Below, one piece after another: positions 1 to 64,000 of a stretch of 64,000 nucleotides of DNA. Numbering within the stretch: position 1 is the stretch's first letter; every line of letters begins with the position of its first letter. The stretch is taken from the NCBI RefSeq assembly GCF_000243095.1, contig NZ_AHJE01000147.1:1-64000 (forward strand), read 5' to 3'. This DNA comes from Cupriavidus basilensis OR16 (lineage in GTDB: Bacteria; Pseudomonadota; Gammaproteobacteria; Burkholderiales; Burkholderiaceae). The position numbers were made by a program, and so were the translations under genes. Below the pieces are notes generated by a model. The model made no database searches and had not been told where the DNA came from. It was given only the letters and a program-made list of their open reading frames with translations.

Positions 1-1256
1 TGGCCTTGGCGTGGGCGCGCGCCAGTATCCAGCCGCACAGTGCCGCATATTCGCCCAGCAACTCGGCGTCCATCAACTCGATCTCCGGCGAGAGCTTCAT
101 GTCGCGCAACTGCCGCACGTAGAAGTGGCGGCCGAAGGGGCCGTCGTTCCAGCCCAGGAACACATCGCTGGCGGCCTGCATCAGCCGTTGGCCTTCCACT
201 ACGCGCCGGCCCTCATGCGCCACCGGAGCGGACTTGAAGTAGCGGGCAATCACCGACTGGTTGGCCTGCTTGCTTTGCAGGAAGAGCGGCTTGCCGTGGT
301 TGTCGATCATCAGGATGACCAGGCAACGGGTGCCGACACTGCCCACCCCCACCACCTTGAAAGCCATATCGTGCCGCGTGAAATGGCTCAGCAGTTGGCG
401 CCGGTCCGGCGCCAGGGTGTTCAGGTACGCCTTGAACGCCTTGTCGATCGCCTTCTCCCTGCTGCCGATCGTCATCCAGTTGTCCTCGGGCGAAAACAGC
501 GTGTTCTCGCCGTGGATGTGGAAGACGGCCGGCGGTGCGTCGCGGATCATCCAGCGTTCGCCGACCTGCGCTGACAGCTTGGGCAGCAGTGCCTCGCTGG
601 TGCGGCTGGCAGCGCGCTCCATGCCGCGCTCCAGGCGCTTGCGGATCTGCGGGGAGGCCGCGTTGGCGATCAGGCGGTCAAAGGTGATGGCGTCGTACCA
701 GGTATCCAGGATGCCCATCTGCGCATACTCTGCCCATCTGCGCATACTCGGCCATGCGCTCCTGATAGGTGCGCACCACGCGATAGACCACGTCGTCGGC
801 CACGCCGCGCTTATGCCGCAGGTGCCGCGCCGCGACGGTGAAGCTAGCGGCAAGCCGTTTCAAGTCCCATTCCCACGGGCCAACGCTGGTCTCGTCGAAA
901 TCGTTGAGGTCGAACAGCAGCGAGCGCTCCGGGCTGGCGAACCCGCCGAAGTTGGCCAGGTGCGCGTCACCGCAGATCTGGATGGCCAGGCCGGCGTTCG
1001 GGGTGCCGGCCAGGTCGTGCGCCTGCACAATGGCACTGCCGCGGTAGAAGGTAAACGGCGACTCGATCATGCGGCCGTAGCGCAGCGGCACCAGCCGCTC
1101 GACCCGGCCGGCACTGTTGACCTGGAGCAGCTCGACGGGATCCCGGTCGACATTGCCGATCGCCGCATGCGCTCGGCGGGGAACGTGCTTGCGGGTGACC
1201 TTGCCGGCCTTGCGGCGCGAGAGGATGTCTTCGGGGGTTTCTGCAGGGGTTTCCAT
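1..1256 (-). pseudogene. DUF2252 family protein, frameshifted, runs off the left edge
   Basis: The N-terminal part reads from ATG at 1256, behind AAGGAG, to about 731. It contains the family's conserved stretches ICGDAHLANFGG and FDLNDFDET. The frame then breaks at an exact 19-bp tandem duplication (712-749) and ends 33 bp later. Past the duplication another minus frame continues open to base 1 with equally typical sequence, such as GVGSVGTRC and LFLQSKQA. Removing one 19-bp copy joins the two halves, so this is one gene with a recent insertion. DUF2252 proteins are about 400-450 aa and kinase-like in fold, with no settled function. The C-terminal end lies outside the window. The gene follows mipA by 64 bp on the same strand. 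Confidence 0.85.
712..749. repeat. 19-bp tandem duplication inside the DUF2252 gene
   Basis: Bases 712-730 and 731-749 are identical (TGCCCATCTGCGCATACTC). The length is 1 modulo 3 and shifts the reading frame. One copy alone restores a continuous DUF2252 protein, so the second copy is the derived state. Confidence 0.95.
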
Positions 1257-1320
1257 AAGCGCTCCTTGGCAACTGACTTGGTGCTCTACTGTGCTTGCTG
1301 GCACGGACAACAACGCTGGC

Positions 1321-2181
1321 CTATCTCCAGGCATAGGCGAGGCCCGCACCATAGGTGATCTGGTTGCGCGTGCCGCGCTGCGTCACGATCGGGCTATCGC
1401 CGGCGCTGCCGGTCAGCCGCTGGCCGTAGACCATGGCGCCGGCGTACCAGCTCTTGTCGATCTGGAAGATCAGCCCCAGCCAGCCGGTGAATTGCTGCAG
1501 GCCGCCGCCGGGCGAATAGACGGGCAGCCCGCTGCGGGCGGCATCGTCCGGCGTGACCCCGTAGTAGGTCTGGTTGAAACCGTGGCTAACCCAACTGGCG
1601 CCCAGTCCCGCGCCGGCATAGACGCGCGGATGCAGCGGCACCCAGGCGGTGCCGTTAAGGGAGGCCCGCGCGCCGGTATAGACCACGCCCGCATTGGTGA
1701 CCACGGCAACATTGACGCGCAGGCGGTAAGGCACCCGCCCCTCGTTCAGGTACTCGTAGCCCATGAAGCCGCCCGCCTCCACCGTGGTCTTGATCTCGTG
1801 GATCTGGGACACTACCGGATCGTCCACGTCCTTGCGCCCCAGCCTGAGCGCAACGGACGGCCCCCACTGGAAGCCGGTGACGCCACCCAGGTTGTACTGC
1901 GCGTAGGGCCCGTACCACTCGAACAGATGGCCGCCCGGCGTGACGTAGCGCAAGCCGGGCACCACGCCGATCATGCGGTCCTTGCCGCCGGCGTATTGCG
2001 TGGTGGAACCGATGCCCCCGCCGACCATGTTGGGCAGGGAATTCGGCAAGTCCACCGGCGCGGCGCCGGCGCGGCCGGCCATCAAGGCCAGCGCGAAGGC
2101 GAAGGCGACCGGCAATGGCAGCGCGGCGGTGCGCCGTTGACGCGATGCAAAAAAAGAGGTTTGCCACGGCGACGAGTGCAT
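1321..2181 (-). CDS. MipA/OmpV family outer-membrane protein
   Basis: This 286-residue protein has an N-terminal signal peptide (hydrophobic residues about 20-38, cleavage after AGA-A). Alternating aromatic/polar beta-strands follow, ending in a C-terminal aromatic-Trp-Arg end typical of outer-membrane barrels. The motif YGPYAQYNLGG and the glycine-rich strands fit the MipA/OmpV family (about 250-290 aa). Members are scaffold or porin-like proteins of uncertain function. It begins 63 bp downstream of the BatD remnant on the same strand, so it may be the last member of that operon or have its own promoter in 2182-2244. It looks intact. Confidence 0.85.
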   Translation of the reverse strand: MHSSPWQTSFFASRQRRTAALPLPVAFAFALALMAGRAGAAPVDLPNSLPNMVGGGIGSTTQYAGGKDRMIGVVPGLRYVTPGGHLFEWYGPYAQYNLGGVTGFQWGPSVALRLGRKDVDDPVVSQIHEIKTTVEAGGFMGYEYLNEGRVPYRLRVNVAVVTNAGVVYTGARASLNGTAWVPLHPRVYAGAGLGASWVSHGFNQTYYGVTPDDAARSGLPVYSPGGGLQQFTGWLGLIFQIDKSWYAGAMVYGQRLTGSAGDSPIVTQRGTRNQITYGAGLAYAWR

Positions 2182-2244
2182 TGTTCGGTTGGCTCCGGAT
2201 GGATCGGGTTCAGGCGGGTCAAGCCATGCAGCATTGGCTGCCCG

Positions 2245-3590
2245 CTAGCCACTGCCCGGATTGAGCGGCGGCAATGGCGTCACCGCGCGATGGCCCAACC
2301 TGGCCGGCTCTCGCGCCAGGGCCGCGCGGGCCTCCTCCAGCGCCTGGCCCAGCGCGGCCGGCGGCGCATCGTCGTGCCTGGTTGCCCGGCAATAGCGGCT
2401 GGACAGCAGTTGCTCGGCCGCGCTGGCAAACGCCGCACTGCCGGCAGCGCGTTCGGCGTTGCCCAGCGCCGCCGGGCGCTCAAGCATGGCAGGCGCGCGC
2501 CGTGCCACACGGTCCAGGTGCCGCGCGCGGCGCAGCCGCGCAAAGGCGGCAGCCTCGGAGCCCGCGTAAGCGAGCCGCCGCTGCCGGCGCCAGGCCCGCA
2601 GGCGGCCAAGCATGCGCATCAGCCGGGGCAGCACCAGCCATGCCGCCAAGGCCAGCGCCGCCAGTGCCGCGGCCCAATAGGCCAGTTGTCGCGGATCCAT
2701 GCGCGCGCGGTGTCCCGGCACCGCCGCCAGGGGCTCGCCGGGAATGCCAACCGGTGGCTGGTAGCCGGGGTTGGCGGCGGCGGAAAACCGCAATGCCGGC
2801 GCCGTGGCCGTGCGCAGCTTGCCGGCACGGATATCCCACCACGGCACATCCACCCCCGGCAGCGCGTAGCGCCCGGCGCGCTGAACCACATAAGTGGCGG
2901 CGTCCACCCGGCGCCCGCCAAGAAAACCCTGCCGCTCCTGGCTGATGTCCTGCACGCGCGGCGCCTTGGGGTAGACCGCCAGCCCTGGCACCGGCGCGAA
3001 TGTGGTGGGCGGCAGCAGCATGGCCTGCACGCCATCGGCGCTGATCTCGATGGTCCGCGTGAAGGCGTCGCCCGCCTTGAGCGAACGCAGGTCGCGGTCG
3101 ATGGACTGCGTCACGTCAAGCCGCGTGGTGCCGATGGCGTTCTCGGCGCCAGCGGGGCGCGGCACCGTTGTGACCGTCAGTGTCAGTGCAGGGGTGCGCA
3201 CCTTCACCGTTCCGCTCACCTGCCCGACCTGCAGCGTAAGTTCCAGCGGTGGAATGGTGATGGCGCCGCCGGCCTGCGGCGTGACGATGTAGGTGCGCGA
3301 TACGCCGAACCATTTCACGCCCTGGATCTCTTCACTCAGGTTGGTGGCATCGTCCCCCGGCGGGCTGACGATGGCCCGGGGAGTTCCAGCGCCGGAAAGA
3401 GCGGCGCCTCGGTGAACCAGTTGGTGGTCAGCGCGTCCACCACCAGCTTGACGGGCTGGCCCTGCGCCACCGCGCCGCCCGGCTCCAGGTGCGCGCGCGC
3501 CATCGATCCCGGCGCGTCGCCTAGCGCCGGCAGCGCCATCAACAAGCCGAGCAAGGCGGCGATGGTGGCATAGAGCAGGAGGCGATTCAT
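2245..3590 (-). pseudogene. batD: BatD-like protein (oxygen-tolerance family), one frameshift
   Basis: The start ATG at 3590 overlaps the batB stop (ATGA), indicating translational coupling. Residues 1-25 form a signal peptide (MNRLLLYATIAALLGLLMAL). The first frame stops after about 85 codons. From about 3380 the neighbouring frame continues with beta-rich BatD sequence (SRTYIVTPQAGG, VDVPWWDI), a membrane helix (YWAAALAALALAAWLVLP) and a basic C-terminal tail. One base missing in the CCCCGGGCC stretch around 3376-3384 explains the break and would give ELPGAIVSPPG. BatD is a periplasmic, membrane-anchored partner of the BatA/BatB VWA proteins. The frameshift is either a real loss or a homopolymer error. 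Confidence 0.8.
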
Positions 3591-5104
3591 GGCGCCACCT
3601 TGCCCGGCGCGGGCTGCCGCGCCTCGACCTGGAACTTCTGGCGCAGGAAATCCGCTGGGGAGATTTGCAGGTTGCGCATCCATAGTTCGGCGTTCTGTTG
3701 CCGCAGACGGCTCATATCGACCCTTCCTTTCTTGCCGCCATCGTCCTTCTTGTCGAACTGGATCTGGTCCGGCGGCATGTCCGGCGCTTGCTCGCTGTCG
3801 TCCTTTTTCTTCTTTTTCTCCTGTTCGATGAGCGCCGCCACAAGCGCCCGGTTGGCGCTAGCCTGCGCAAACCGGGGGCGCCCCTTGAGGGCGTTGTCGT
3901 AGGCCGACAGCGCACGCGGATAGTCTTTCAGCTGCGCATGGCAATTGCCCATCATGAAGAAGGCGTCCGGCGTGGCGAGGCCGGCAAATGCGGTCAGCGC
4001 GCCCGCGTAGTCGCCCGCGCGGTAGCTGGCCCAGCCGCGCCACATCGGGTTCTCGAAATGCGCGGCGGCAACGGTGAAATCGCCGTGCTCGAACTGCCAG
4101 CGGCCCTGCTGGTCGGGTGTGAGAAAGACATCCAGGAATGCCGTCTTGACCGACGCCATGGTGGGCACCACCGGCGCCGCCACCGCCGGGCGCGGCGCCT
4201 GCGCAAGGAAAGCCGTCAGCAGCGCCGGCAGCCAGCGCACCACCCAGCCACGCCGGAACCAGAAGGCGGCCAGCAACGCGATGGGGATGGTGAGGACGTA
4301 GCCCGCCTCCTTCCAGCGCACCTCGACATTCTTCTCCTGCGCGGCCTCCATGTTGCGCACCGCGCGGCGCTGCACCCAGCTCACATCGTCGTCGTCCAGC
4401 GTCAGGCTGGCCAGCGGGATGTCGGCGTCGGACGCGAGCGCCTTCAGCGCCGCCAGGTCCAGCTTGCCCTGCACCGGGCGGCCCTGCTGGTCGGTGGCCA
4501 CGCGGCCATCGGCGGTGCGGATCGGCCCGCCCTGGGTGGTGCCCGCGGCCAGCACCAGCACTTGTACCTGGCTGTTGCGGGCATGCGCGGCAAAGGCGGG
4601 GATTTGCGCGCGGTCAAAGCCATCGGTGATGAACAGGACGGTGCCCGCCGCCGACTCGCGGCCCAGCAGGCTGTCGGCGAGCGCCAGCGCTGCGGCGGCG
4701 TCCTTGCCGGCGCGCGGCATCATGCCGGTATCCAGCGCGGCCAGGTACAGCGCCATGAACTGCGGGTCGTCGGTCGGGGGCACCACCATGTGGGCGGTGC
4801 CGGCATACACCACCAGCCCGGTGCGCGAGCCAGCGCGCAATTGCATCAGGTCCCGCACCTTTTGCTTGGCGCGCTCCAGCCGGGTGGGCGCCAGGTCCAC
4901 CGCGTCCATGCTGTGCGAAAGGTCGATAGCGATCACCAGCGGCGCCTTGTCCTCGGTGAAGGGCGGCGGCTCGCGTTCCCAGGCCGGGCCGGCCGCGGCC
5001 AGACCGATCAGGACCAGCGCGGCGCAGGTACCGTGCACCGGCCGCAGGCGCCAGCGGCGCGCGCCGTCCACGATCAGCCGCTCCAGCAGATGGGGGGCGA
5101 TCAC
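3587..5104 (-). CDS. batB: BatB/BatC fusion: VWA domain protein with TPR repeats
   Basis: The protein has 505 residues. A membrane segment near residue 30 is followed by a von Willebrand A domain (about 55-240) with an intact MIDAS signature DLSHSMD and VLFITDG. A second hydrophobic segment lies at about 285-320. TPR-like helices (about 360-430, containing FFMMGNCHAQLKDYPRALSAYDNAL) and a lysine/aspartate-rich acidic-basic tail follow. This is the BatB domain joined to BatC, a fusion common in proteobacteria. The start is GTG at 5104, overlapping the batA stop as GTGA. It acts in the inner membrane with its VWA domain in the periplasm, probably as a metal-dependent protein-interaction module with BatA and BatD. 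No lesion was seen. Confidence 0.88.
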   Translation of the reverse strand: MIAPHLLERLIVDGARRWRLRPVHGTCAALVLIGLAAAGPAWEREPPPFTEDKAPLVIAIDLSHSMDAVDLAPTRLERAKQKVRDLMQLRAGSRTGLVVYAGTAHMVVPPTDDPQFMALYLAALDTGMMPRAGKDAAAALALADSLLGRESAAGTVLFITDGFDRAQIPAFAAHARNSQVQVLVLAAGTTQGGPIRTADGRVATDQQGRPVQGKLDLAALKALASDADIPLASLTLDDDDVSWVQRRAVRNMEAAQEKNVEVRWKEAGYVLTIPIALLAAFWFRRGWVVRWLPALLTAFLAQAPRPAVAAPVVPTMASVKTAFLDVFLTPDQQGRWQFEHGDFTVAAAHFENPMWRGWASYRAGDYAGALTAFAGLATPDAFFMMGNCHAQLKDYPRALSAYDNALKGRPRFAQASANRALVAALIEQEKKKKKDDSEQAPDMPPDQIQFDKKDDGGKKGRVDMSRLRQQNAELWMRNLQISPADFLRQKFQVEARQPAPGKVAP

Positions 5105-6059
5105 GCCTTGCCACCGGCGTGCCCCGGCTCCGGCACGGCGGCGGGCGTGGCCGCCACCAGCGGCTCAGATCGCGCTTGGGCTGGCGCGACTGGCGCTTTA
5201 CCTTGACCGGCGTGATGCGGTCCAGCGTTGCATAAATGGCCTCCAGCCCGGCGAGGTCGTCACCACGGAAGGAGCGGCCGCCGGTCATGCTGGAGATCTT
5301 CTGCAAGGCGCCGAGGTCGACCTTGTTCTCCCCGGTGGCGTTCGGGTCGCCGATGCCAATGGTATGGATGATCAGCCCCTTGTCCTTGGCGACCTGCGCG
5401 GCCTGCTCCGGCGGCACCTTGCTGGCGGTGTCGTTGCCATCGGTCAGGAGGATCAGCACCTTTTCCTGGGCGGGCGATTTCTCGGTCATGCGCACGCCCA
5501 CCCCGATGGCATCGCCAATGGCAGTCTGCGGGCCGGCCATGCCGATCTGCACCTCGGCGAGCAACGCCTTGACGCTGCCGTGATCCATGGTGAGCGGCGC
5601 CTGCGGGAACGCCGCCGCGCCGAACACGATCAGGCCGATGCGGTCCTCCTTGCGGCGGTCGATGAACGTGTTGACCACCTGCTTGACCGCGGTAAGCCGG
5701 TCCACGCGGTGGCCGTCGGCTTGCGCGAAATCCCTGGCTTCCATCGATTGCGACAGGTCGATGGCCAGCATCAGGTCGCGCGCCGGCTCGGTGCGCTCGA
5801 TGGGCGGGTCCACCCATACCGGCTTGGCCAGCGCCGCCACCAGCAGCGCCCAGCACAGCGGCGCCAGCAAGCGCTGCGCCCAATTGCGGCGCATCACCAC
5901 TGCGCCCTCGGACGGACGCAGGCCGGAGCGTTCGGCCATTTCCTCGAAGAAAGGCACCCGCACCGCGGGCATGGTTTCCCGGTAAGCCGGCAACAACAGC
6001 CAGGCCAGGATCGGCAGGAGCAAGGCCAGCGCGGCCCACGGATGGTCAAAGGTGAGCAT
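5101..6059 (-). pseudogene. batA: BatA-like VWA domain protein, frame break near the C-terminus
   Basis: Residues 1-75 contain two hydrophobic segments. The VWA domain (about 90-280) has MIDAS DLSQSME and LILLTDGND. Conserved sequence ends near RQPKRDLS (about 5165). In this frame the protein then runs about 180 further codons antiparallel in quality to real coding sequence, through the whole start region of batB. The adjacent frame instead gives a short tail (PLVAATPAAVPEPGH...) with its TGA at 5101-5103, overlapping the GTG of batB. A one-base indel at about 5155-5172 is therefore likely. The start at 6059 overlaps the end of the DUF4381 gene by 14 nt. Confidence 0.75.
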
Positions 6060-6600
6060 GGTGCTGTCCGATCCAGTCGCGCAGCAGCGCGATCAGCGCC
6101 GTCACCTCGGCGGCGGGTGGCGAGCGCACGCCGTAAGCCAGCTCGGGCAGCAGCCGGCCGGGACCCTCGGCGAAGCCACCGGCGCGCCAGGTGCCATCGA
6201 GGTAATCCAGCCAGGCCTGTGCGGACAGGCTGGCCACCTGCGTGCGCGGCGCGCACGCCAGCACCACGCGCTTGACCAGCGCCGGCAAGGCGGCAAGCGC
6301 GTCGCGACGGCTCTCGTCGCCGGCCGCCGCCGCGATGCCGGCCTCGATGCGGGCCAGCTCCGCGAGCGCGTCGCGCCGGTAGCGGTTGGCCTGATGGCGC
6401 CGCCAGGCACGCCAGGCCAGCAGGCCGGCCAGCGCCAGCAGCAAGGCGCCCAGGACGGCCCAGCCCCAGGTCTGTGGCAGGTAGGACACGGGTGGCGGCA
6501 AGGGGATTTCCTGCAGTTTAGCCAATGCGCCGGCAGCATCCGCTGTGCCGGCAACCGGCTGCGCGGCATCGGCGGCGTAGGAATGGGTCAGGTCTGCCAT
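6046..6600 (-). CDS. DUF4381 domain-containing membrane protein
   Basis: The protein has 184 residues: a proline-rich N-terminus, one transmembrane helix at about 45-65 (WAVLGALLLALAGLLAW), an Arg-rich cytoplasmic flank (RRHQANRYRRDAL), then a helical domain. Length, topology and the position between a DUF58 gene and batA fit DUF4381, a constant but uncharacterised member of MoxR/Bat operons. It begins 19 bp after the DUF58 gene and overlaps batA by 14 nt, so the genes are probably co-translated. It is intact. Confidence 0.85.
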   Translation of the reverse strand: MADLTHSYAADAAQPVAGTADAAGALAKLQEIPLPPPVSYLPQTWGWAVLGALLLALAGLLAWRAWRRHQANRYRRDALAELARIEAGIAAAAGDESRRDALAALPALVKRVVLACAPRTQVASLSAQAWLDYLDGTWRAGGFAEGPGRLLPELAYGVRSPPAAEVTALIALLRDWIGQHHAHL

Positions 6601-6619
6601 GGGGTATCCGCCGGGTCCG

Positions 6620-7621
6620 TCAATGCCTGCGGGGCGCTTTGCCGCGCGGCGCCAGGCGTCCCAGGAAATGCCGCAACTGGGCCAGGGCCTCGCCTTGCGT
6701 GTCGATCGGCATCATCGGCACGCCGCTGCGCTTGAGCAGCTCGGTGACATCGTGCAGGCGGCCGGTGAAAAAGGATTCGATCGGCTCGCGCGTGGTCCTG
6801 TCGCCCATGTCGAGCTCCACCTGCAACTGCCCTTGCGTTACCACCATGCGCCCCGTGTGGTGCGGCACCGCCTGGAACAGCGGATCGAACACCATCGCCG
6901 CGATCACGCTGTTGTGGCTGGACAGCTGGCGCAGCAGGTCCTGGGTACGCTGGCCGGCGCCGGCGAAGTCGCTGACCACGCAGACCAGGTGATCGTGCCC
7001 GGCCAGTTGCAAGGCGCGTTCCAGCGCGTGGTCCAGCTGGCCGTAGACCGGCTGTGCTTCGCTGGCGGCGTGCAGCGCCTGGTTCATGCCGGCAATGGCG
7101 CCCAGCACGGCCTGCACGCGGGCACGGCTGCGCAGCGGGCGGATCAGCGTGGCGTCGCTGTCGTTGAACACCACGGCGCCCACGCGGTCGCCCGCCTGCA
7201 GCGCCATCCACGCGCACAGCGCCGCGAACTCCGCGGCCAGCACGGATTTCATCGCCCGCTTCGAGCCGAAGAACATCGGCATGCGCTGGTCCACCACCAG
7301 CAGCACCGGCAGGTCACGCTCCTCGGTATAGACGCGCACCAGTGGCTTGCCCGTGCGCAGCGAGGCCTTCCAGTCCAGATGGCGGATATCGTCGCCCTGC
7401 TGGTAGCCGCGCAGCGCCTCGAAGTTCAGGCCACGCCCGCGGATGCGCGAGCCGTGCTTGCCCGAGAGCACGCTGGCATGCGGCTGGCGCATGGTAAAGC
7501 CCAGGTCGCGCACGGCCAGCTCCAGCCGCGCCAGGTGCGCGACGTCGACCCACACGGTGCCCAGCTCGCCCGCGCGCGCAGGCGTGGCCGCTGGGTTGGC
7601 CAAGACGGTTCCCGCCGGCAT
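6620..7621 (-). CDS. DUF58 domain-containing protein
   Basis: Reading from ATG at 7621 (MPAGTVLANPA) gives 333 residues, the usual size. The frame is open further upstream, but that part lies across moxR and is not credible. The DUF58 hallmark GRGLNFEALRGYQQGDDIRHLDW-type region lies at about residues 45-70, followed by a VWA-like fold (LPVLLVVDQRMPMFFGS; LVCVVSDFAG). DUF58 proteins are cytoplasmic or membrane-associated partners of MoxR AAA+ ATPases. The gene starts 11 bp after the moxR stop and looks intact. Confidence 0.88.
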   Translation of the reverse strand: MPAGTVLANPAATPARAGELGTVWVDVAHLARLELAVRDLGFTMRQPHASVLSGKHGSRIRGRGLNFEALRGYQQGDDIRHLDWKASLRTGKPLVRVYTEERDLPVLLVVDQRMPMFFGSKRAMKSVLAAEFAALCAWMALQAGDRVGAVVFNDSDATLIRPLRSRARVQAVLGAIAGMNQALHAASEAQPVYGQLDHALERALQLAGHDHLVCVVSDFAGAGQRTQDLLRQLSSHNSVIAAMVFDPLFQAVPHHTGRMVVTQGQLQVELDMGDRTTREPIESFFTGRLHDVTELLKRSGVPMMPIDTQGEALAQLRHFLGRLAPRGKAPRRH

Positions 7622-7632
7622 CGCGCGGCCCT

Positions 7633-8334
7633 TTATGCCGGCACGGCCACGACTTCGACCAGTTTGTTCACCACCGCGTCGGCGTCCAGCCCGTCGGCGC
7701 TGGCATCGTAGGACAGGATCAGCCGGTGCCTCAGGGTCGGCAGCGCCATGGCGCGCACATCGTCCGGGGTCACGTGATCTCGCCCTTCCAGCCAGGCGTT
7801 GGCACGGGCGGCGCGGTCCAGTGCGATGCCCCCGCGCGGGCTGGCCCCGAGCGCGATCCATTTCGCCAGATCGGCGTCGTAACGCGCTGGCGTGCGGCTG
7901 GCGTTGACCAGGTCGATGATGTAGCGATCGATCGCGTCGGCCACGTGGATCCCGTGGATCTCCTCGCGCGCGGCAAAGATCGCGGCCTGCGGCACCTTGG
8001 CCGGTTCCTGCTGCGGCCTCGCGGCGGCGGCGGCGCTGCCCGTCTCCTCGCCGCGCACCAGCCGCAGCACATCGCGTTCATCGCCGGCGGCAGGATAGGT
8101 GATCAGCACCTTCAGCAGGAAGCGGTGGGTGAACTGGATGCGGCGCATCTGCGCGTCCAGGCTTGCGGCCACGCTCTTGACCATGCGCGTCTTGGCCAGC
8201 CCCGGCACGCTTTCCAGCAGCAGGTGGCCGTTGGCCAGCAGGCCGATGACGATCTGGCGGATGACGCTGCCCTGGCCTTTGATCGACTGCTCCACATGCT
8301 GCTGCAGCGCGGCGATAGCCTCTCGTGGACTCAT
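7633..8334 (-). CDS. moxR: MoxR-family AAA+ ATPase with in-frame internal deletion
   Basis: The protein is 233 residues, against about 310-340 for MoxR. The N-terminus (KGQGSVIRQIVIGLLANGHLLLESVPGLAKTRM) carries a Walker A-like P-loop. At about residue 66-70 the sequence jumps from RIQFT straight to HRFLLKVLITYP. In the family these segments are separated by roughly 85-90 residues that include Walker B (LLADEINR type), sensor 1 and the ATQNP motif. The C-terminal lid domain (SPRGGIALDRAARANAWLEGRDHVTPDDV) is complete. The frame is kept, so a stable protein could be made, but ATP hydrolysis should be abolished. It heads the MoxR-Bat set, 109 bp after the sulfatase gene. Confidence 0.85.
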   Translation of the reverse strand: MSPREAIAALQQHVEQSIKGQGSVIRQIVIGLLANGHLLLESVPGLAKTRMVKSVAASLDAQMRRIQFTHRFLLKVLITYPAAGDERDVLRLVRGEETGSAAAAARPQQEPAKVPQAAIFAAREEIHGIHVADAIDRYIIDLVNASRTPARYDADLAKWIALGASPRGGIALDRAARANAWLEGRDHVTPDDVRAMALPTLRHRLILSYDASADGLDADAVVNKLVEVVAVPA

Positions 8335-8443
8335 GATGCGGGTCTCTGGATGCCCTGGCCCGCAAGCCAGGGGTTGTCGTGAGAATGGCCCGCGCCGGCG
8401 GCGCCGGCGGCCAGTTCGTTGCTTCCTTGCGCTGCGTCGATGG

Positions 8444-9907
8444 CTACTTCTTCGGCGGCCTCAGCTTCTCGATGCGCTCATCCACGGACTTGCGCACCTG
8501 GTCCACGCTGAAGCTGGCCGGCTTCTGGCTTGGCGGATACGCGACGAAGCTCTCCAGGAATACCGTGGCCTTCATCGTGGCGATTGCCGTCAAGTAGGCG
8601 TTCTTCGTGACCCAGTCGTAATACTGGTCGGAGACGACATCCGCTCGCTCGTAGGGGTCCATGCGCAAGTTGAAGACCTTGGGGAACCGCAGGCAGGTAA
8701 ACGGGTTGGCCCAGACCTGCATGCCGCCCGGAGCGCGCTGCTCGCAGAACACGACCTTCCAGTCGTTGTAGCGCATTGCGACCAGATCGCCATCGTCACT
8801 GAAGTAATAGAACTCGTCCCGCGCGCCCTTCGGGCTCTTGCCGGTCAGGTAGTCGAGCTGGTTGTAGCCATCCAGATGCACCTTGAAGCTCTGTCCGGAC
8901 TTTGGCGACCAGCCTTTGAGCAAGCGATCCTTGACGGTGGTGTCGCCCACCGCGGCCAGCAGCGTCGGGAACCAGTCCAGCCCGGAGAACATCTGGTTGG
9001 ACACTTCGCCCGGCTTGATAGTTCGTGTCCTTCTCACTGCGGAATGGCGTGGTAGCCGCGTCTAATCGTTGCCAGGCATGCCGCTGCGGCCCTTCATCGA
9101 GGCGCGCACGTGGGTGAACAAGTGCATGCGGGTGGTGTTCATCCAGACAAAGAACGGCTTGTTGTCCTTAGCCTGCTTCTTGATGAACTCCTGCGCGGCG
9201 GCGGTGGTTTCGTCGTCGATGGTCTCCATCCGCTTGGTCGTCAGCGGGCCGGTGTCCTGGATCTTGCCGTCGGCGAACGAATGGATCACCCCGCGTGGCG
9301 AGAAGTTCTTCGCGAACGGATCGTTCTTGTCCTTTGGCCAGTAGGGGCGCTCCGGCTCCTCCTCCGCATTCAGGTGGTAGAGGTTGCCGTAGAACTCATC
9401 GAAGCCATGCGCCGTCGGCAGGTACTCGTTCTTGTCGCCAAGGTGGTTCTTGCCGAACTGCCCGGTGGCGTAGCCCTGCGCCTTCAACGCCTGCGCAATG
9501 GTGATATCGCCCTTCTGCAGGCCTACCGGCGCACCCGGCGCGCCGACCTTGCTCAGGCCGGTGCGCAGCGGCGTCTGCCCGGTGATGAAGGAGGAGCGGC
9601 CTGCCGTGCAGCTGTTCTCGGCGTAGTAGTCCGTGAACATCATGCCTTCTCTGGCGATGCGGTCGATGTTCGGCGTCTTGTAGCCGACCACGCCCTGGCT
9701 ATAGGCGCTGATGTTGGTCTGCCCGATGTCGTCACCGAAGATAACAAGGATGTTCGGCTTCTTGGTGGACCCGCCACCAGACGCGCTGGCGGGCGCGTCG
9801 GCGGCCATGGTGGTGGTTGGCGCGGAGGCCAGCCATCCGGCGGCCGCGATCGGCACCGCCACGGCGAGCGCGATCGCCGCTCGCTTTAATGAGCGATTCA
9901 TTCGCAT
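8444..9907 (-). pseudogene. Arylsulfatase with two internal deletions and frame breaks
   Basis: The start is ATG at 9907 behind GAGGAGAAG. A signal peptide/TM (about 10-35) is followed by sulfatase sequence ([16 protein letters not shown]) and the modification site SCTAGRSSF, a CxAxR variant whose Cys would become formylglycine. The N-terminal frame stops at 9062 after [10 protein letters not shown] 14-codon island (DAATTPFRSEKDTN, about 9021-9062) follows in another frame. From about 9019 the C-terminal part (IKPGEVSNQMFSGLDWFPTLLAAVGD to 8444) resumes. In intact relatives these three pieces are separated by about 45 and about 15 residues, so two separate deletions have occurred. It is probably periplasmic. 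An FGE gene lies two genes upstream. Confidence 0.88.
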
Positions 9908-9985
9908 GTCTGCTTCTCCTCTTTTACCCGACCGCTGCCGGCGGCCCCGGTTTCCCAAATCCGTGTTCGCGGATCTTGTGTTGCG

Positions 9986-12358
9986 CTAGTCCCGCATGCC
10001 CAGCATGCGGCGGAAGTACTGGTTGGGCGCGCCCCCCTGCACGGCTTGCCCGATCTCCTCGCGCCAGCGCTGGCGGTCGCCGGCGTAGGCGGCGAGCGTG
10101 GCCGCGTAGAAGTGCATCAACCTGTCACGCTCCTGCGCGATGTCCGCCACGAAGGCCGCATCGGCGCCGCGCAACGGCGGGGCTGCGTACAGATCCAGCA
10201 AGGCCGGGAGCACGCGCGAGATCTCGTCGCGCCGCACCCAGCCCGCGTACTCGATCAGCGGCCGGTCATCCGTCACGGCCGGCGCGCCGGCGGCGTAGCG
10301 TTCCAGCCCTTCACGCCCCGTCACCCAGGTGGCGAGCAGCGCGGCAGGCGAATGAATGCCGACCTCGCGCAGCGCGCCGGCCACCGATGGCTGGGCGAAG
10401 CGCGCCTGGATGCGCTCGGCGTCCAGGTCCAGCGGGGCGTCCGAGCCCACCAGCAGCATCTCGTGCACCTCGGTGGTCCACAGCGAGACATGCGGGAAGA
10501 CGTCGAGAAAGCTGCGCACCAGCGCGCGGGAGTCCTCATCGTTCTGCGTGGCGAGCGGCAGCCACTGGGCGAACAGCCCGCCCTGTTGCAGGCGGCTGCG
10601 CGCCAGCGCATAAAAATCGCGCGAGTACAGGTTCACCACGCCGGCAGCCGATGGCGGCGGCGGCTCCAGGGTGATCAGGTCGTAGCGCTCGGTGCTGCGC
10701 AGCAGTTCTTGGCGGCCGTCGCGCACGCGGATATCAGAACGAGGATTGCGGCTGACGTCGTAGTTGCCCCGGAACTGCGGCACCGCGCGCACCACCGCCG
10801 GCAGCAGCTCGGCCGTGACGCGGCGCTCCAGGCCCGGGTACTGCGTCAGCGCGCCGGCGGTAATGCCGGTGCCGAGCGCGACCACCAGGGCCGAGCGCGG
10901 CTCCTGCGTGTGGACCAGCAGCGGCAGCAAGGCTTGCAGCCGCATGTAGCGCAACGAGCCAATGGCGTCTCCCGAGTTGGAGACGCCCGAGATATACAAG
11001 CGGCGGAAGCTGGCGCCCGGCCTGCCCTGCTCGATCACGGCGACCGTCCCGCCAGGGCTTTCCTCGTAGGAAACCAAGGTGCCGTCCTTGGCCTCGGCAA
11101 GCAGCCGCGCCAGGCGATCGGGCGGCGTCTGCACCCCGGCCACTGCCACGCATACGCCGATGCCCAGGGCCGCCACGCGCATGGCGGGCCGCGCGCCGGG
11201 GCCGCGCAGTACCGCCACCGTACCCACCGTCGCCGCGGCAGCGGCGAGTATCCCAAGGGTATGAACCAGGCCCAGCATCGGCACCAGCACGAAGCCGGCC
11301 AGGAAGGTGCCGGCGATGCCACCCACGGTATTGAGCGCCAGCACAACGCCCACGTCGCGCCCGATATGGCCGGGCTCGGCGCACAGGCGCAATGCCGCGG
11401 GAAACGCGGCGCCCAGCAGCACCGTGGGCGCAAACACCACGCACAGCCCCGCCACCGCAAAGCGCGCGCACATTGCCGCCAGCTCGCTGCCGGTGACAGC
11501 CATGACCATGCCAGCGAGGCGCACCTGCCACTGGACCAGCCAGGTTCCAAGCCCTGCCACCTGCAGCAGCGCGACCAGGCCCGCCAGCCCCACCAGCACG
11601 CCAAACACGCCCCACGGATCGCGCACGCGATCGGCAAAGCGGGCGTAAATGGCACTGCCTACCACCAGACCGCCAAGGTAGGTGGCCAGCACGATGGTGA
11701 AGGCAAAGCTGCGCGTGCTCATGAACTGCACGATGGCCTGCGACCAGACGACTTCGTAGCCGAGCGCAATGCCGCCGGCGACTGCGTATAGCGCCACCGC
11801 CAACCTGGCCCGCGGCTGCGGCGCGGCAACGAGGACGGCGGGCGCCGCCGTGGCGGCAGCGATGGCCCGAGGCGCGCTGGCGCGGCCCAGCCCCAGCGCC
11901 GCTGCCGCGAGCGCCAGGTTGACCAGCGCGGCGGCCATGGCCGCGCCGCGCACGCCAAACGACGGCACCAGCATGAAGGTAGTCAGCAACGCACCTGCCA
12001 TGGCGCCTAGCGTATTGGCGGCGTAGAGCCCACCGCCCGTGCGCGCCACCTTGCCGGCCGGCGGCGCGCACGCCGCCATCAGCGCCGGCAGCGTGCCGCC
12101 CATCAGCAACGCCGGCAAGCCGATCAGCGCGAATGGCAGGCACCAGGCCAGCAGCCCGGCGCGGCTCTCGATCGCGACAAACCACGGCGCCGCCTGTGCC
12201 AGCCCGAGCGTGGCGCCAAGCCCCAGCACGGCGATGCCCAGCTCCAGCGCGGCGTAGAACAGCAATGGCCGCGTCACCCTGTCGGCCGGGTCTGCCTGGC
12301 GCGATGCGGGCGGCGTGACCGTCAGCATGGGTGCGGCGGTATCGCGGCTTCGGATCAT
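9986..12358 (-). CDS. Membrane-bound spermidine synthase-like protein
   Basis: Residues about 20-430 form a multi-helix membrane domain (two MFS-like halves with GTLPALMAA and YEVVWSQ motifs). Residues about 440-790 form an aminopropyltransferase/SpeE-like Rossmann domain: VVALGTGITAGAL as the cofactor glycine motif, LITLEPPPPSAAGVVNLYS as the catalytic loop. Such fusions are common, and the substrate is rarely known. The start at 12358 follows GGGAG; another ATG lies at 12328. The N-terminus joins ADPADRVTRPLLFY directly after about 20 polar residues. Relatives have a first helix pair with YQVVW-type sequence before the ADRV motif, so some 60-80 codons may be missing here too. It sits between FGE and sulfatase on the same strand. 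Confidence 0.75.
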   Translation of the reverse strand: MIRSRDTAAPMLTVTPPASRQADPADRVTRPLLFYAALELGIAVLGLGATLGLAQAAPWFVAIESRAGLLAWCLPFALIGLPALLMGGTLPALMAACAPPAGKVARTGGGLYAANTLGAMAGALLTTFMLVPSFGVRGAAMAAALVNLALAAAALGLGRASAPRAIAAATAAPAVLVAAPQPRARLAVALYAVAGGIALGYEVVWSQAIVQFMSTRSFAFTIVLATYLGGLVVGSAIYARFADRVRDPWGVFGVLVGLAGLVALLQVAGLGTWLVQWQVRLAGMVMAVTGSELAAMCARFAVAGLCVVFAPTVLLGAAFPAALRLCAEPGHIGRDVGVVLALNTVGGIAGTFLAGFVLVPMLGLVHTLGILAAAAATVGTVAVLRGPGARPAMRVAALGIGVCVAVAGVQTPPDRLARLLAEAKDGTLVSYEESPGGTVAVIEQGRPGASFRRLYISGVSNSGDAIGSLRYMRLQALLPLLVHTQEPRSALVVALGTGITAGALTQYPGLERRVTAELLPAVVRAVPQFRGNYDVSRNPRSDIRVRDGRQELLRSTERYDLITLEPPPPSAAGVVNLYSRDFYALARSRLQQGGLFAQWLPLATQNDEDSRALVRSFLDVFPHVSLWTTEVHEMLLVGSDAPLDLDAERIQARFAQPSVAGALREVGIHSPAALLATWVTGREGLERYAAGAPAVTDDRPLIEYAGWVRRDEISRVLPALLDLYAAPPLRGADAAFVADIAQERDRLMHFYAATLAAYAGDRQRWREEIGQAVQGGAPNQYFRRMLGMRD

Positions 12359-12392
12359 TGCAGCTGGCTCCCACAGCACAGCCTTGCTGGTG

Positions 12393-13603: not shown

Positions 13604-13760
13604 TTCTGCGTTCCGAAAATAGGCAAGCCACGCCCCAAATCGGCGCGTACTCCTAGCATGACAGAGCAAGCCAGAATGAGAATTGAAAGTTTTGGGGCCG
13701 GATATTAGGGATTTGGTGGCCGTGGCCCCGGTTGCGTCAATCACCACGCCGCGTCCTTGC

Positions 13761-14560
13761 TTACCTGCCGAACGTCATGTTCAGCCCGGCAAACACCGTC
13801 CATTGCGGTTGCCCCGGTCCGTGGTGCGCCACCGAATACTGCGGCTCGATAAACGCGTTCATGATGGTCTTGCCCTCTTTCCAGGCCTTGCCGAAACCCA
13901 GGCCCACCGGGATGTAGTACGCGTCGTTCTGCAGGTTGAATGTCCATACCCCGGTGGAGCGCACATACCAGCCGCCCGGATAATTGAAGATGCCGAACGG
14001 CTGGAAAGTCAGCGTCTGCACGGTCGGGCGCGCGCTCTGGCCGGCAAAGGAATGCTGCCATTGCACCAGCGCGCCAAGCAGCCGCGCCGGGCTGGGATCC
14101 ACCACCACGGCGGCCAGGCCGGCCTGCCACTTGCCCGTGCCGAGCTCCGGCGACGTCGCCGTCGGCATGGTCAAAAGCGGCCCCACGCCGATCTGCGTGC
14201 CATGCTCCTTGAGCAGGAAGATATCGAAGACGTTGATGTCGCCAAGGCCGGTGGTGTAGCTGCCATCGGCCTGGGGGCGCGTGCTGATCGGCGCCGTGAC
14301 GCGCAGGATCTGGGGCACGCCCACCAGTTTGTTGGGCAGTACCGGAAGCGTGCCGCGCAGCAGGAAATCGTTGGTATGCACGTTGGTGTCGTACACCCGC
14401 GGCGAGTAGTAGTTCTGCAGGTTCAGCGAAGGTGCCGGGTTGAGCGGGTTGTTACTCTTGTTGGCGTCGTCCGCGGCGGATTGCGCATGCACCCCGGCGC
14501 CGCGCCAAGTATCAAAGCCAGCATGGCAGCCTGACCGCACCGCGGCAAAATGGTCTTCAT
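13761..14560 (-). pseudogene. Exported outer-membrane beta-barrel protein, one-base frameshift after the signal peptide
   Basis: ATG at 14560 opens a signal peptide (MKTILPRCGQAAMLALILGA) whose frame leaves the gene after about 30 codons. The neighbouring frame carries the whole mature protein, starting HAQSAADDANKSNNPLNPAPS and ending QWTVFAGLNMTFGR, with a long series of beta-strands. One missing G in the GGGG run near 14496 would give APGVHAQSA with a normal signal-peptidase site. It resembles the exported proteins annotated as phenol-degradation MetA-like or neuromedin-U-like transporters; no substrate is known. It is on the same strand as FGE, 157 bp upstream. Confidence 0.7.
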
Positions 14561-14784: not shown

Positions 14785-14787
14785 CCC

Positions 14788-15972: not shown

Positions 15973-16048
15973 GCCTGCCGCGCCACCGTCACAGCCGCCG
16001 GCCACCCGGCTAGCCGGCTACCCGCTTCCAACAACAAGGAGCCGCCTT

Positions 16049-47227: not shown

Positions 47228-47228
47228 G

Positions 47229-52660: not shown

Positions 52661-54763
52661 TCAGGGCAACACTGGATTCGCCTGCGCGCTCGCCACGCGC
52701 CGATCCGCATCCGCCTGCAGCAAGAAGCGCCTGGCCACCAGCCCGGCCGCCACGCTCTGCACCTTGGCCACATAGCCGGCCTGCTCGGTGTAGAGCGACT
52801 CCAGCGAGGGCCGAGCATCGCCAGCCGCAATGCGCGCGGCCTCGGTCTTGTGGAAGGGAATATAGCTACCGCTCAGGTTGACCAGATCCACAATGCCCGG
52901 CGGTGCGTCCACGTCAACGGAGTGGATCCCGGCCTTGGTCAGCCCGGTCTGCGCATCCACCTGCGGCACCATGATGGCGTAGTCCCGCCCCATGTACGAC
53001 GGCGGCAACAGGGTCGGGATGCCGGACTCATCTTGCGGCCGGTATGTCGGGCCGTAGTCGAGCAACGGGAAGCCGTTGTAGCGCGCCAGATACTGCAGCG
53101 TGGGAATCGCGGCATTGCTGCCCGCACCGGCCCAGGTAATGCCCTTGGCGACGGGGAAGGTCAGCTGGTCGGGCCGTACCAGCGTGCCATCGGCGATGGC
53201 CGGAACCTGGCTGGCCGGCGGCGCGACATCGCGCGCCACCCAGTCCTCCAGCGCGACGAACAGCGCGCGGAAGGTATCGGCAAAGTCGACCATGGAGCCA
53301 GCCGGGTACACCGTGGCGGCAGGCGCGTAGCTGATCAGTGGCGACTTGCCGCCGTGCTGGGTGCTCGCGTAGTAGTAGATGCGCGCGTTGTCAGGCTGCT
53401 TCAGGTCGGCAAAGCCGTAGGGATCGGTCAGCACCGGCGAGCCCTGCAGCTGCCAGAACTCCGTGCCCGACAGGCCGAGGAAGAACTTCGGGCAGGTTTG
53501 CGTAGCGGTGCAGCGCTGCATGACACCGCCGCTGCGGCCAGCCAGCGTGTCCTGGTAGTCTGCGGCCAGCCCGCGCGGCGCGGTCTGGCCAAAGGCGCGA
53601 TGGTCGGTGCGCAAGCCACCGCCGCCGCCGGGCACGGCGAAGCGCGTGTTGATGTTGGTCTGGCGCGCGGCCACATGGGCATAGATGCCGTCGAACACCT
53701 TGCTGCCATCCAGCGCCTGGTTAAAGCCAAGATGCAGGAAGGTCTTCATCGCATTGCCCGATTGCGAGGTGCCCTGCCCGATGGCAAAGCGCACCGCGCC
53801 CGCCACCGGATTGGGCGTGCCAGCCGAATCCGCGGCCTGGTGCCGGAAGAACGTGATGGTATCGCGCAGCGCCGCCAGCCCCACGCCCATCACCTTCGGG
53901 TCTTTCGCCACGTAGGTAATCTCGTAAAGGTAGCCCGGCGCGAAACCGCCCTTGAGGCAGATGTTGGCGGCGTCGGCCTTGCCCGGGAACGGATTGCTTG
54001 CGTTATCGCAGGTGGCGAACTTCCAGTCCGTTGCGGGAATCGCCACGCGCGGGTCGGTCTCGTTCACGCGCCGCGTCAGCGTATAGCCCGGCAAGGTATT
54101 GTCGAGGCTGGCCGGCGCATAGGGAATCATCGTGCTGTTGAACACGCCGCCCGGCAGGCTCATCGACGGGCTGGCCACGCTCGGGATCAGCTCTGCGGCG
54201 TAGGGGCCGGTAATGCTGCTGCCATCCTTGTTCTTTGCCACCGGCACCGTCAGCGTCAGCCGTGCCGCCGAGCTCTTCGGCACATCACCTTGCCAGGCCG
54301 AGTACAGCAGCACATAGCCGCGCTCGAAGTAGAGCGAATCGCCGGGCACCGCGGTAGGGTTCGGCATGGTCAGGATGTTGCCGCGATTGGGCGCGTCATA
54401 TCGCAGTACGCCGCCTGCCTTGCTCATGTCCTTGGGCTTGAGCATGACGAACTCGGTGGTGTACTCGACCAGGCCGCGGCCATTCACCGGCGCCAGCGCC
54501 AGGTCCTGAATGATCGCGTTATGCGCATCGGCGGGATCGACTTCGCCCTTGAGCGTGCCGGTGAGTTTTTCATAGGGGCCCACGTTGCCGTAGGAACCGG
54601 CCATGTCTTCCCGTGCGGTGATGGTCAGCGTCGTGCCCGGGGTGGCCGCCGGGGTGGACGTCGCGGCGGTGCCCGCGTTTGCGCCGTCGTCGTTTCCGCC
54701 GCAGGCAATCAACGGCAAAGCTAGCGCCAGCGCCGCCGTGCGGCGCGCCAAGGTGGTCTCCAT
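52661..54763 (-). CDS. Large exported alpha/beta-hydrolase-domain lipoprotein
   Basis: 700 residues. Lipoprotein signal: RTAALALALPLIACGGNDD, lipobox IAC. The mature protein fits the 'alpha/beta hydrolase domain' family of big exported proteins: RYDAPNRGNILTM, LYFERGYVLLYSAWQGDV, IGQGTSQSGNAMKTFLHLGFNQ (nucleophile-like Ser in GTSQSG) and FLGLSGTEFWQLQGSP. Such proteins are thought to be surface esterases, but the substrate is unknown. It is intact and convergent with the preceding LysR gene. Confidence 0.8.
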   Translation of the reverse strand: METTLARRTAALALALPLIACGGNDDGANAGTAATSTPAATPGTTLTITAREDMAGSYGNVGPYEKLTGTLKGEVDPADAHNAIIQDLALAPVNGRGLVEYTTEFVMLKPKDMSKAGGVLRYDAPNRGNILTMPNPTAVPGDSLYFERGYVLLYSAWQGDVPKSSAARLTLTVPVAKNKDGSSITGPYAAELIPSVASPSMSLPGGVFNSTMIPYAPASLDNTLPGYTLTRRVNETDPRVAIPATDWKFATCDNASNPFPGKADAANICLKGGFAPGYLYEITYVAKDPKVMGVGLAALRDTITFFRHQAADSAGTPNPVAGAVRFAIGQGTSQSGNAMKTFLHLGFNQALDGSKVFDGIYAHVAARQTNINTRFAVPGGGGGLRTDHRAFGQTAPRGLAADYQDTLAGRSGGVMQRCTATQTCPKFFLGLSGTEFWQLQGSPVLTDPYGFADLKQPDNARIYYYASTQHGGKSPLISYAPAATVYPAGSMVDFADTFRALFVALEDWVARDVAPPASQVPAIADGTLVRPDQLTFPVAKGITWAGAGSNAAIPTLQYLARYNGFPLLDYGPTYRPQDESGIPTLLPPSYMGRDYAIMVPQVDAQTGLTKAGIHSVDVDAPPGIVDLVNLSGSYIPFHKTEAARIAAGDARPSLESLYTEQAGYVAKVQSVAAGLVARRFLLQADADRRVASAQANPVLP

Positions 54764-57074: not shown

Positions 57075-58394
57075 TCACCAAAGCTTGCGCAGCGCCTTAA
57101 GCCCTGCCGCGATGTCCGCCTCGTCGATCGCCCCGAAGCCGAACAGCAAGCCCGCGCGATCCTGCGGGCCGAGGTAGTACTCCTGCGTGGTCCAGACACC
57201 AATGCCCTGCTGCCTCGCGCGCGCCGCCAGCGGCTCGGGATCGGCGCGGCCAGCCCACAGCGCCGCCAGGTGCAGGCCAGCGGCGCAGGGCACCGGATCG
57301 AGGCGGCCGCTGAAATCCGCGCGCAGCGTATCGAGCAGAAGCTGCCGGCGCGCGCCATAGAGCCGGCGCATCTTGCGCACGTGGCGCGCGAGGTGGCCTT
57401 CGGCGATGAAGGCGGCGAGCGTATCCTGCGCGGTGACGGCGCAATGCCAGTCACTGCATTGCTTGGCCAGCGTGAGCGCCTGACGCGCCCAGGGTGGGGC
57501 TACCACGAAGCCCAGCCGCAGCGTGGGAAACAGGCTTTTGGAGAAGGTCCCCACGTAACACACGGATTCGGCGCGATCCAGGGTCTGCAAGGCGTCGAGC
57601 GGGCGCTCGCCGTGGCGGAACTCGCCGTCGTAATCGTCCTCGACGATGACGGCGCCACGCGCCTGCGCGAACGCGAGCAAGGCCGCGCGGCGCGCCGCCG
57701 ACATGGCGTGGCCGAGCGGAAACTGATGCGATGGCGTGACGTCCGCCACCACGGTGCGCCCAGGCGTCACCAGCACGCGGGCCAGCAGATCGAAGGCCTG
57801 CTGCGCGCCCGCCGTGACCACCACGTCGCCAGCATGGCAGGCGACCGCGCGCGCAAACGAGACATGGCTGGCAATGGCCTCGCGCAGCGCGTGCTGCCCC
57901 TGCGGATCGGCGTAGGCCACGGGCGCATTTGCCATCGCCCGCATGGTGCGCGCGGTCAGGCGCCCCCACAGGTCCGCGCGGAACGCCGACAGCGCCGGCA
58001 CGCCCACGCGAAAGTCGAAACGCGGCACCCTCGGCGCGGCTTCCCGTGGCGGCAAGGGCGGCGCCCGCCAGAACGCGGCCAGCCTGCGGTCCGCCTCGGG
58101 CGCGCCATGTTGCGGGGCCGGCGCGCGCGCGGGCGCCAACAACTGCGCCACATAGGTGCCGCCACGCTCGCGCGCCACCACATAGCCCTCGCTCAGCAGC
58201 AGGTCGTATGCGGCCACCACCGTGTTGCGCGACACGCCGCAGGCCTGGGCCAGCGCGCGCGTGGCGGGCAGGCGCAAGCCGGGGCGCAAGCGCCCATCCA
58301 GGATCGCCCCCTTGAGCTGGCCGTGCAAGCCGCGCAGCAAATGGCGCGAGCCGGGTGCCGGCAAGCGGATCGGGAAAGCGAATTCTGGATCCAT
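57075..58394 (-). CDS. MocR-type regulator (GntR HTH + aminotransferase), in-frame deletion
   Basis: The N-terminal winged HTH (GSRHLLRGLHGQLKGAILDGRLRPGLRLPATRALAQACGVSRNTVVAAYDLL) is typical GntR. The C-terminal fold-type I aminotransferase domain has the PLP lysine in GTFSKSLFPTLRLGF and EDDYDGEFR. Between LVTPGRTVVA and DVTPSHQFPLG (about 57740) roughly 36 residues found in relatives are missing, including the usual EDPGY motif. The frame is kept, giving 439 residues where about 480-500 is normal. It is divergent from an EamA-type exporter. PLP binding is probably impaired. Confidence 0.85.
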   Translation of the reverse strand: MDPEFAFPIRLPAPGSRHLLRGLHGQLKGAILDGRLRPGLRLPATRALAQACGVSRNTVVAAYDLLLSEGYVVARERGGTYVAQLLAPARAPAPQHGAPEADRRLAAFWRAPPLPPREAAPRVPRFDFRVGVPALSAFRADLWGRLTARTMRAMANAPVAYADPQGQHALREAIASHVSFARAVACHAGDVVVTAGAQQAFDLLARVLVTPGRTVVADVTPSHQFPLGHAMSAARRAALLAFAQARGAVIVEDDYDGEFRHGERPLDALQTLDRAESVCYVGTFSKSLFPTLRLGFVVAPPWARQALTLAKQCSDWHCAVTAQDTLAAFIAEGHLARHVRKMRRLYGARRQLLLDTLRADFSGRLDPVPCAAGLHLAALWAGRADPEPLAARARQQGIGVWTTQEYYLGPQDRAGLLFGFGAIDEADIAAGLKALRKLW

Positions 58395-59729: not shown

Positions 59730-60146
59730 TCAAGCCTTGGCGCCGTCGGTATAGACGTCACGTGCACCGCTGCGGGCACCATCAAAGTACGGGTTGCGGT
59801 TGCCGTTGCGGGCGCCATCGGTGTACGGATCGAACTTGCGGCTGGGTTCCCCCGACACGCCGCTGCGGTCCAGGCCGGCGACGGTACGGAAACCATCCGT
59901 GTACGGGTCGGTCTTGCCAACGCGGGCGCCGTCGGTGAACGGATCAGCCTTGCCGACGCGTGCGCCTTCGGTAAACACATCGAACTTGCCGCTGCGGGCG
60001 CCGTCGCTGTAGACGTCGCGTGCGCGGTACTCATAGCCGTACTTGTCGGCGGGGACGGCCGCGGCTGCCTGGGCATGGCCGGCGGCGAAAGCGGCGGCGA
60101 GGGTGGCGGCGGTGAGCAGGGACTTGGCAAAAAGCTTGGTGTTCAT
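59730..60146 (-). CDS. Exported protein with seven 12-residue repeats
   Basis: From ATG at 60146, 138 residues with a signal peptide (SLLTAATLAAAFAAGHAQA-A). The mature part is built of about seven degenerate repeats of 12 residues, consensus (K/R)-x-D-P-Y/F-T-D-G-A-R-x-G, for example KADPFTDGARVG, KTDPYTDGFRTV, KFDPYTDGARNG. The fourth copy is followed by an irregular insertion of about 14 residues. The motif is rich in Asp, Gly and aromatic residues, suggesting metal or carbohydrate binding in the periplasm. No known domain is recognised. Two TetR-like dyads are upstream. Confidence 0.8.
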   Translation of the reverse strand: MNTKLFAKSLLTAATLAAAFAAGHAQAAAAVPADKYGYEYRARDVYSDGARSGKFDVFTEGARVGKADPFTDGARVGKTDPYTDGFRTVAGLDRSGVSGEPSRKFDPYTDGARNGNRNPYFDGARSGARDVYTDGAKA

Positions 60147-62886: not shown

Positions 62887-63196
62887 AGCGTTGCCGGCGC
62901 CGGCGCGCCCCTTCACTTGTGCGGGGACGCGCTGGTGCGTCGTCATGCGATGCCGCGCGGCTTCACGCCGCGCTGTCCACCTGCTTGCATGACGCACGGC
63001 GCTTGCGCAAGCGTTGCCCATAGCCCGGCCGCCGGCACAGCGCCGGCGCTGTGCGATACTTGCCGCCTCACGCGGCCGTCCCCATGCCATCCGCGCAGGA
63101 GCGTTGCCTCGCACAGGGGCAGTGGCGCCCTGCGCGCTCGCCGTGCTGGCAAGGGAAGGGGTGCCCGCCCAGGAACTAGGAATCAGGAACATCGAA
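62887..63196. other. 310-bp intergenic region with two palindromes
   Basis: Perfect 14-bp palindrome CGCTTGCGCAAGCG (63000-63013) and perfect 20-bp palindrome GCACAGCGCCGGCGCTGTGC (63035-63054). No T run follows either one, and no ORF was supported. Confidence 0.6.
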
Positions 63197-63801
63197 ATGA
63201 GCGCACTGCTGCCAGCCATTGAAATCGAAACCGCGCCATCGCCCACATGGTCGGTCATCTGGATGCTTCCCAACGCGCCGGCCATCCCGGTCACCTGCAA
63301 TGGCGGCTATGTCATGCCGGCGTGGTACGACATCCATTCGCTCGATGACGCGCGCCGCCACTGCGGACGAGGCCGGGCATCCGTGTCTCCCGCGACGCCA
63401 TTCGCGCCCTGATCGCGCGGGAGAACCAGCGCGGCGTGCCCACCCATCGCGTGGTGCTGGCCGGTTTCTCGCAAGGCGGGGCCGTGGCCTATACCACTGG
63501 CCTGACGCATCCCGAAGCGCTGGGCGGCATCATCGCCCTTTCCACCTATATCCCCGCGCCGGCGCTGCTTGCCGCTGAGTTCAGCGAAGCCAACCGCGCC
63601 ACGCCGATCTTCGCCGGACACGGCACCGAGGACGACGTGGTGTCCGTGCAGCTTGGCCTGCTGGCGCGCGCCACCGTGCAAGCGCAGGGCTGCCAGGTGG
63701 AATGGCACACCTACCGCATGTCGCACTCGGTCTGCATGGAAGAGATCATGGCCATTGGCGCCTGGCTGAATGCGCGCTTCGCGGCGGGCGAGAAGTCCTG
63801 A
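63197..63801 (+). pseudogene. Carboxylesterase/EstB-type alpha/beta hydrolase, deletion and frame breaks
   Basis: ATG at 63197 with AGGAA upstream. The start MSALLPAIEIETAPSPTWSVIWM is typical of EstB. The next residues LPNAPAIPVTCNGG are a direct junction: about 25-30 residues holding the oxyanion part (HGLGADG-type) are gone. After YDIHSLDDA two single-base insertions (about 63360-63380) move the frame. The last part is normal again: PTHRVVLAGFSQGGAVAYTTGLTHPEALGG with catalytic Ser, Asp in GHGTEDDVV and His in YRMSHSVCMEEI. The gene is inactive as read. Confidence 0.85.
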
Positions 63802-63884
63802 CGCGCCCGCATATTGCCCCGAGAGCGCCCCGAGATCGGATAGCGTGGTAGGCTCGCGCCCCACCGCATGATTTGCCAGTCATT

Positions 63885-64000
63885 ATGAAAACCTCGCCCC
63901 CCGGCGCTTCCGCGCCCACGCCAGCACCCGCGCTCAAGCTCGACTTCAATACCCGCAAGGCCTTGCTGTTTGCGCTCGCCGCCGAGCGCTTGTCGGCCTT
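63885..64000 (+). CDS. Start of an unidentified gene, cut by the right edge
   Basis: Reading from ATG at 63885 gives MKTSPPGASAPTPAPALKLD and then FNTRKALLFALAAERLSA, open to the end of the window. The first 20 residues are Pro/Ser-rich and look like a flexible leader; the rest is too short to identify. Confidence 0.5.
   Translation, partial: MKTSPPGASAPTPAPALKLDFNTRKALLFALAAERLSA

Follow-up and report, generated by a model that had tools for sequence, protein, structure and literature searches.

This stretch of bacterial DNA contains many broken genes: are they mutations carried by the organism, or products of the assembly? The window, by which we mean the whole 64,000-base stretch that was analysed (bases 1–64000 of the 67,445-base contig C270), comes from a draft assembly of 8,546,215 bases in 416 contigs (completeness 99.44, contamination 5.1) whose nearest named matches place it in the genus Cupriavidus. 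The excerpted text of PMC4547698 describes the genome of C. basilensis OR16 as an 8.55 Mb draft, and that of PMC12982536 lists OR16 as the sole strain of its own species; the present draft is probably OR16. A literature search, which was not exhaustive, did not find an account of the OR16 sequencing procedure. The sequence-only reading of the window had named about twenty lesions (22 calls) along with exact tandem duplications, and had treated a mutator or long culture on the one hand and a technical cause on the other as equals.

The reference relative for the comparison is G023, a complete genome in two contigs that we take to be strain 4G11 and that is 77–93% identical to the draft over the aligned blocks. 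Comparison with this and other close relatives upheld ten of the 22 named calls as broken where relatives are unbroken, left one uncertain and did not confirm the other 11. The lesions and duplications located in the window are the following:

712–749, minus strand: DUF2252 gene, frame break at an exact 19-bp tandem duplication; unbroken in 2 of 2 relatives.
9037–9065, minus strand: junction in a sulfatase gene; unbroken in 5 of 5 relatives.
17665–17674, plus strand: junction in ORF 16070–18228, where about 55 codons are lost and the frame breaks; unbroken in 3 of 3 relatives.
20618–20654, minus strand: LysR-type gene, exact 18-bp tandem duplication, in frame; single in G023.
24143–24152, plus strand: junction that truncates DsbA; unbroken in 2 of 2 relatives.
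24388–24389, minus strand: AI-2E transporter gene, 61-bp deletion near the 3′ end, which is lost; unbroken in 3 of 3 relatives.
25303–25377, minus strand: AI-2E gene again, an uncertain second lesion within the variable 5′ part; seen against G023 and not against a second relative, L029.
27383–27386, minus strand: LysR-type gene, 10-bp deletion with frame break; unbroken in 3 of 3 relatives.
29724–29730, plus strand: TctC gene, 393-bp deletion, in frame; unbroken in 4 of 4 relatives.
31663–31694, plus strand: amidase gene, exact 15-bp tandem duplication, in frame; single in G023.
35025–35028, plus strand: cydB, 412-bp deletion with frame break; unbroken in 3 of 3 relatives.
47688–47691, minus strand: trehalase gene, 77-bp deletion with frame break; unbroken in 2 of 2 relatives.
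57742–57743, minus strand: MocR-type regulator gene, 126-bp deletion, in frame; supported by G023 and by a split NCBIfam match.
63266–63390, plus strand: EstB-like (Abhydrolase_2) esterase gene, about 84 bp absent and two 1-bp insertions; unbroken in 2 of 2 relatives.

Nine of the ten confirmed lesions have between two and five relatives with an unbroken gene. The sulfatase frame stops at 9062 and picks up again at about 9037, and by our estimate that junction lacks about 65–70 codons present in the relatives; 1,462 bp of G023 are absent from the draft at the DsbA junction, part of which may be natural gene content. The break in ORF 16070–18228, which obtained no Pfam name at our cut-off of E ≤ 1e-8, is additional to the 22 calls. 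The second AI-2E lesion appears against G023 as a frame change plus a loss, whereas the alignment to L029 runs through it in one frame. Among the calls that did not stand, the M14 peptidase gene differs from G023 only by two compensating 1-bp indels (45542–45610), one within a run of Ts, which are likely consensus errors; no break was found in a DUF58 gene of the bat cluster, whose reading frame stays open across 95% of the relative, or in a VWA gene, for which a single-frame match extends over 78%. The FGE alignment spans only residues 168–446 of 446, and moxR, batD, the barrel protein, the Gly-rich protein, the isomerase, YihY/TauE, the aldolase and the second sulfatase are left out of the confirmed set. 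Exact tandem duplications are present as claimed: there are six of period 10–60 in the window, three of them with a period of at least 13.

The window has further features apart from these lesions. Bases 1–18500 (the DUF2252, MipA, VWA, DUF58, sulfatase and FGE genes) are accessory gene content, mostly without a match in G023 and matching several separate places in other Cupriavidus. The genes that adjoin at 32957–33034 stand about 30.5 kb apart in G023, so that either G023 gained sequence or the draft lost it. A 36-bp repeat in three copies (59899–60006, 76% matches), which is not among the exact duplications, lies within a 145-aa minus-strand ORF that is also open in G023 at 93% identity.

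How unusual are such lesions? They were tallied in genes predicted on G023 and in the gene cores only (over 200 nt from the start and over 60 nt from the end), a core lesion being a net frameshift or an indel of at least 30 bp, and genes without both ends aligned were excluded before counting (24 of 182 in the first set and 47 of 318 in a larger set). Core lesions were found in 32 of 160 draft genes versus 3 of 122 genes from nine control genomes or loci (p = 3e-6), and the three control genes are a single variable gene tail in three genomes; control genome G020 contributed no usable gene to this count. When clean flanks are required the values are 30 of 160 and 4 of 122, and the larger draft sample gave 48 of 270 genes. 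Our earliest tallies also took in events near gene starts, and 9 of 112 control genes were then counted. The excess depends on the type of event (156.1 kb of draft versus 129.8 kb of controls): there are 18 versus 0 core deletions of at least 30 bp and 9 versus 0 frame-breaking indels of 4–29 bp, while 1–2-bp indels exceed the controls only about twofold (12 versus 6) and small in-frame indels occur about as often in both (10 versus 9).

A gene-independent count at the DNA level gave a similar picture. Over 482.5 kb of alignment, the draft lacks 58 segments of at least 30 bp and G023 lacks 15 (p = 4e-7), and no such absent segment was found in 188.9 kb of control sequence (ten stretches from six other Cupriavidus genomes, with the duplicate row G021 C51 entered once); one stretch of G021 has a 91-bp extra segment. 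Chromosome-1 clusters make up 154.6 kb of these controls, and the matching clusters of the draft have 10 absent segments in 120.2 kb. The TctC deletion stands outside this count because its two alignment blocks overlap by 20 bp. A reverse gene test, in which genes predicted on the draft were compared with G023, found frame events in 29 of 170 genes versus 37 of 157 in the forward direction and on its face weighs against the asymmetry; we dropped it as a control because a damaged draft gives predicted genes with shifted ends, and replaced it with the independent genomes and the DNA-level count.

These values bear on the reading that nothing more than natural divergence is seen, with ordinary indels and differences in gene content appearing as lesions through the comparison itself. 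The 15 segments absent from G023, the small in-frame indels that are as common in the controls, and the largely unmatched first 18 kb of the window are all to be expected under it, but the lopsided segment counts, the empty control stretches and the two to five unbroken relatives at nine of the ten confirmed lesions refute it as a general account, and we consider it very improbable. Single in-frame cases, for example a 36-bp difference in the gene at 52664–54763, may nonetheless be of this kind. Divergence from one odd relative is likewise ruled out by the six other genomes and by the agreement among relatives.

Is the damage a property of this region? Contig C270 (the window plus the last 3.4 kb of the contig, in which one of the segments lies) has 9 absent segments in 47.7 kb aligned, and the other contigs have 49 in 434.8 kb; absent segments occur on all six sampled contigs of the draft and on none of the ten control stretches. 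Since the rate on C270 is of the same order as in the rest of the assembly, the window is no special hot spot, and decay specific to the region is ruled out. The unusual lesion density that had been proposed is thus real in that it is far above that of other Cupriavidus, but it is not peculiar to this contig.

The biological alternative is that a real slippage or deletion mutator (through loss of mismatch repair, for example) or decay during long culture damaged many genes. The lesions are indeed numerous and adjoin intact genes, but slippage requires repeats and the junctions do not have them. At 34 deletions of at least 4 bp, microhomology (read from the G023 letters) is 0 bp in 21, 1 bp in 9 and 2 bp in 4, and is never longer than 2 bp; random cuts in the same genes give 0, 1 and 2 bp in 52, 29 and 12% of cases and longer matches in 8%. 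The deletion ends therefore resemble random cuts, a pattern that argues against slippage or recombination between repeats and agrees with a loss of letters where contigs were abutted. Nor is codon constraint altered in the broken genes, as third positions take up 0.746 of the substitutions in 40 lesion genes versus 0.745 in 120 intact genes, although this would also follow from very recent loss.

The tandem duplications are similarly in excess. Exact duplications with a period of 13–60 number 17 in 428 kb of the draft versus 3 in 801 kb of other Cupriavidus, about a tenfold difference, and in 10 of the 12 that have an aligned relative (five of the 17 have none) the relative is shorter by exactly one period. 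Of the 17 periods, 6 are divisible by three. A 31-bp duplication on the rpoB contig has run lengths that differ between its copies, as expected of two error-bearing contig ends.

The genes that were broken elsewhere in the assembly decide between these possibilities. In proteobacteria rpoB, obgE, murC and ftsA are required for life. The rpoB gene, for which there is one match per genome, has an open frame of 1094 aa in the draft versus 1372 aa in 8 of 8 relatives; 297 bp are absent, and translation ends after 181 residues at a stop at the junction. The single Obg match in the draft covers 66 of 155 profile positions, versus 155 of 155 in 8 of 8 relatives, and 345 bp of obgE are absent. murC is in two overlapping pieces with 8 bp lost, versus one piece in 8 of 8 relatives, and ftsA lacks 66 bp (22 codons). 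Thus rpoB and Obg, both single-copy and essential, have one match each and both matches are broken. Because the same damage strikes genes that the cell cannot live without, the lesions are almost certainly not real mutations, and a mutator or long-culture decay is exceedingly improbable; genome reduction by pseudogene formation fares no better, since essential genes are not spared and constraint is not relaxed in the broken genes.

We therefore conclude, with a probability of roughly 0.92, that the lesions in the window are errors of short-read draft assembly, which occur throughout the sampled part of the assembly, and that no mutator is needed. Of the two causes that had been held equal, the technical one is supported and the biological one is not, because the same lesions break essential genes, the junctions make no use of repeats and codon constraint is kept. 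Judging from the letters of the assembly alone, the source is quite likely contig joins that were neither merged nor marked. Neighbouring contigs would have been ordered and then written end to end; where there was a real gap between them its letters would have been dropped, giving clean deletions, from a few bp up to about 1,500 bp long, whose ends have no repeat, and where the contig ends overlapped by about 10–31 bp without being merged the overlap would appear twice, as an exact or near-exact tandem duplication. A smaller class of 1–2-bp indels would be due to read or consensus error. The draft has one N in 811,564 bases, and so gaps are unmarked in it. Simple GC dropout as the cause of the gaps is not supported, as the GC content of the absent segments is 0.635 versus 0.671 for their genes (28 deletions), with no GC enrichment.

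One feature does not fit random joining as well. Clean core deletions of at least 30 bp have lengths divisible by three in 14 of 24 cases (p = 0.015), which is above the expectation for random joins and which selection acting on real mutations could account for. By sample, these are 13 of 18 deletions in the first set and one of the six that the larger set contributed; the segments counted independently of genes give 24 of 58. The deletions probably include some in-frame differences of natural origin. It is also conceivable, but unlikely, that real recent deletions in the strain account for a minority of the lesions, namely some in dispensable genes (the in-frame MocR and TctC cases, for example); lying among artefacts, they would fit the mild in-frame excess inside genes.

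The damage that we attribute to assembly error is a draft-assembly artefact related to kinds already described, as far as the excerpted texts of PMC3322347 and PMC9516828 convey them. The first (Klassen and Currie 2012) reports that short-read bacterial drafts split genes, with fragmented ORFs exceeding 80% of the predicted ORFs in some; the present draft resembles those in having genes broken in short-read assembly, but there the reads did not bridge the affected regions, whereas here the pieces are joined in one contig and so mimic deletions and duplications. The second describes homotype false duplications in vertebrate assemblies, in which read errors leave copies uncollapsed, often with a gap between them. 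The duplications in the present draft are also uncollapsed copies, but unlike the vertebrate cases their units are about 10–31 bp long and lie side by side with no gap.

The split marker genes, of which murC in two pieces is an instance, may account for some of the 5.1% estimated contamination. We infer that the strain itself has intact genes, and calls of pseudogenes, fusions, gene loss or internal duplication from this assembly should not be trusted unless a relative or the reads support them. Looking for comparable lesions in the essential genes of an assembly, as was done here, costs little and can settle such cases even in the absence of reads.
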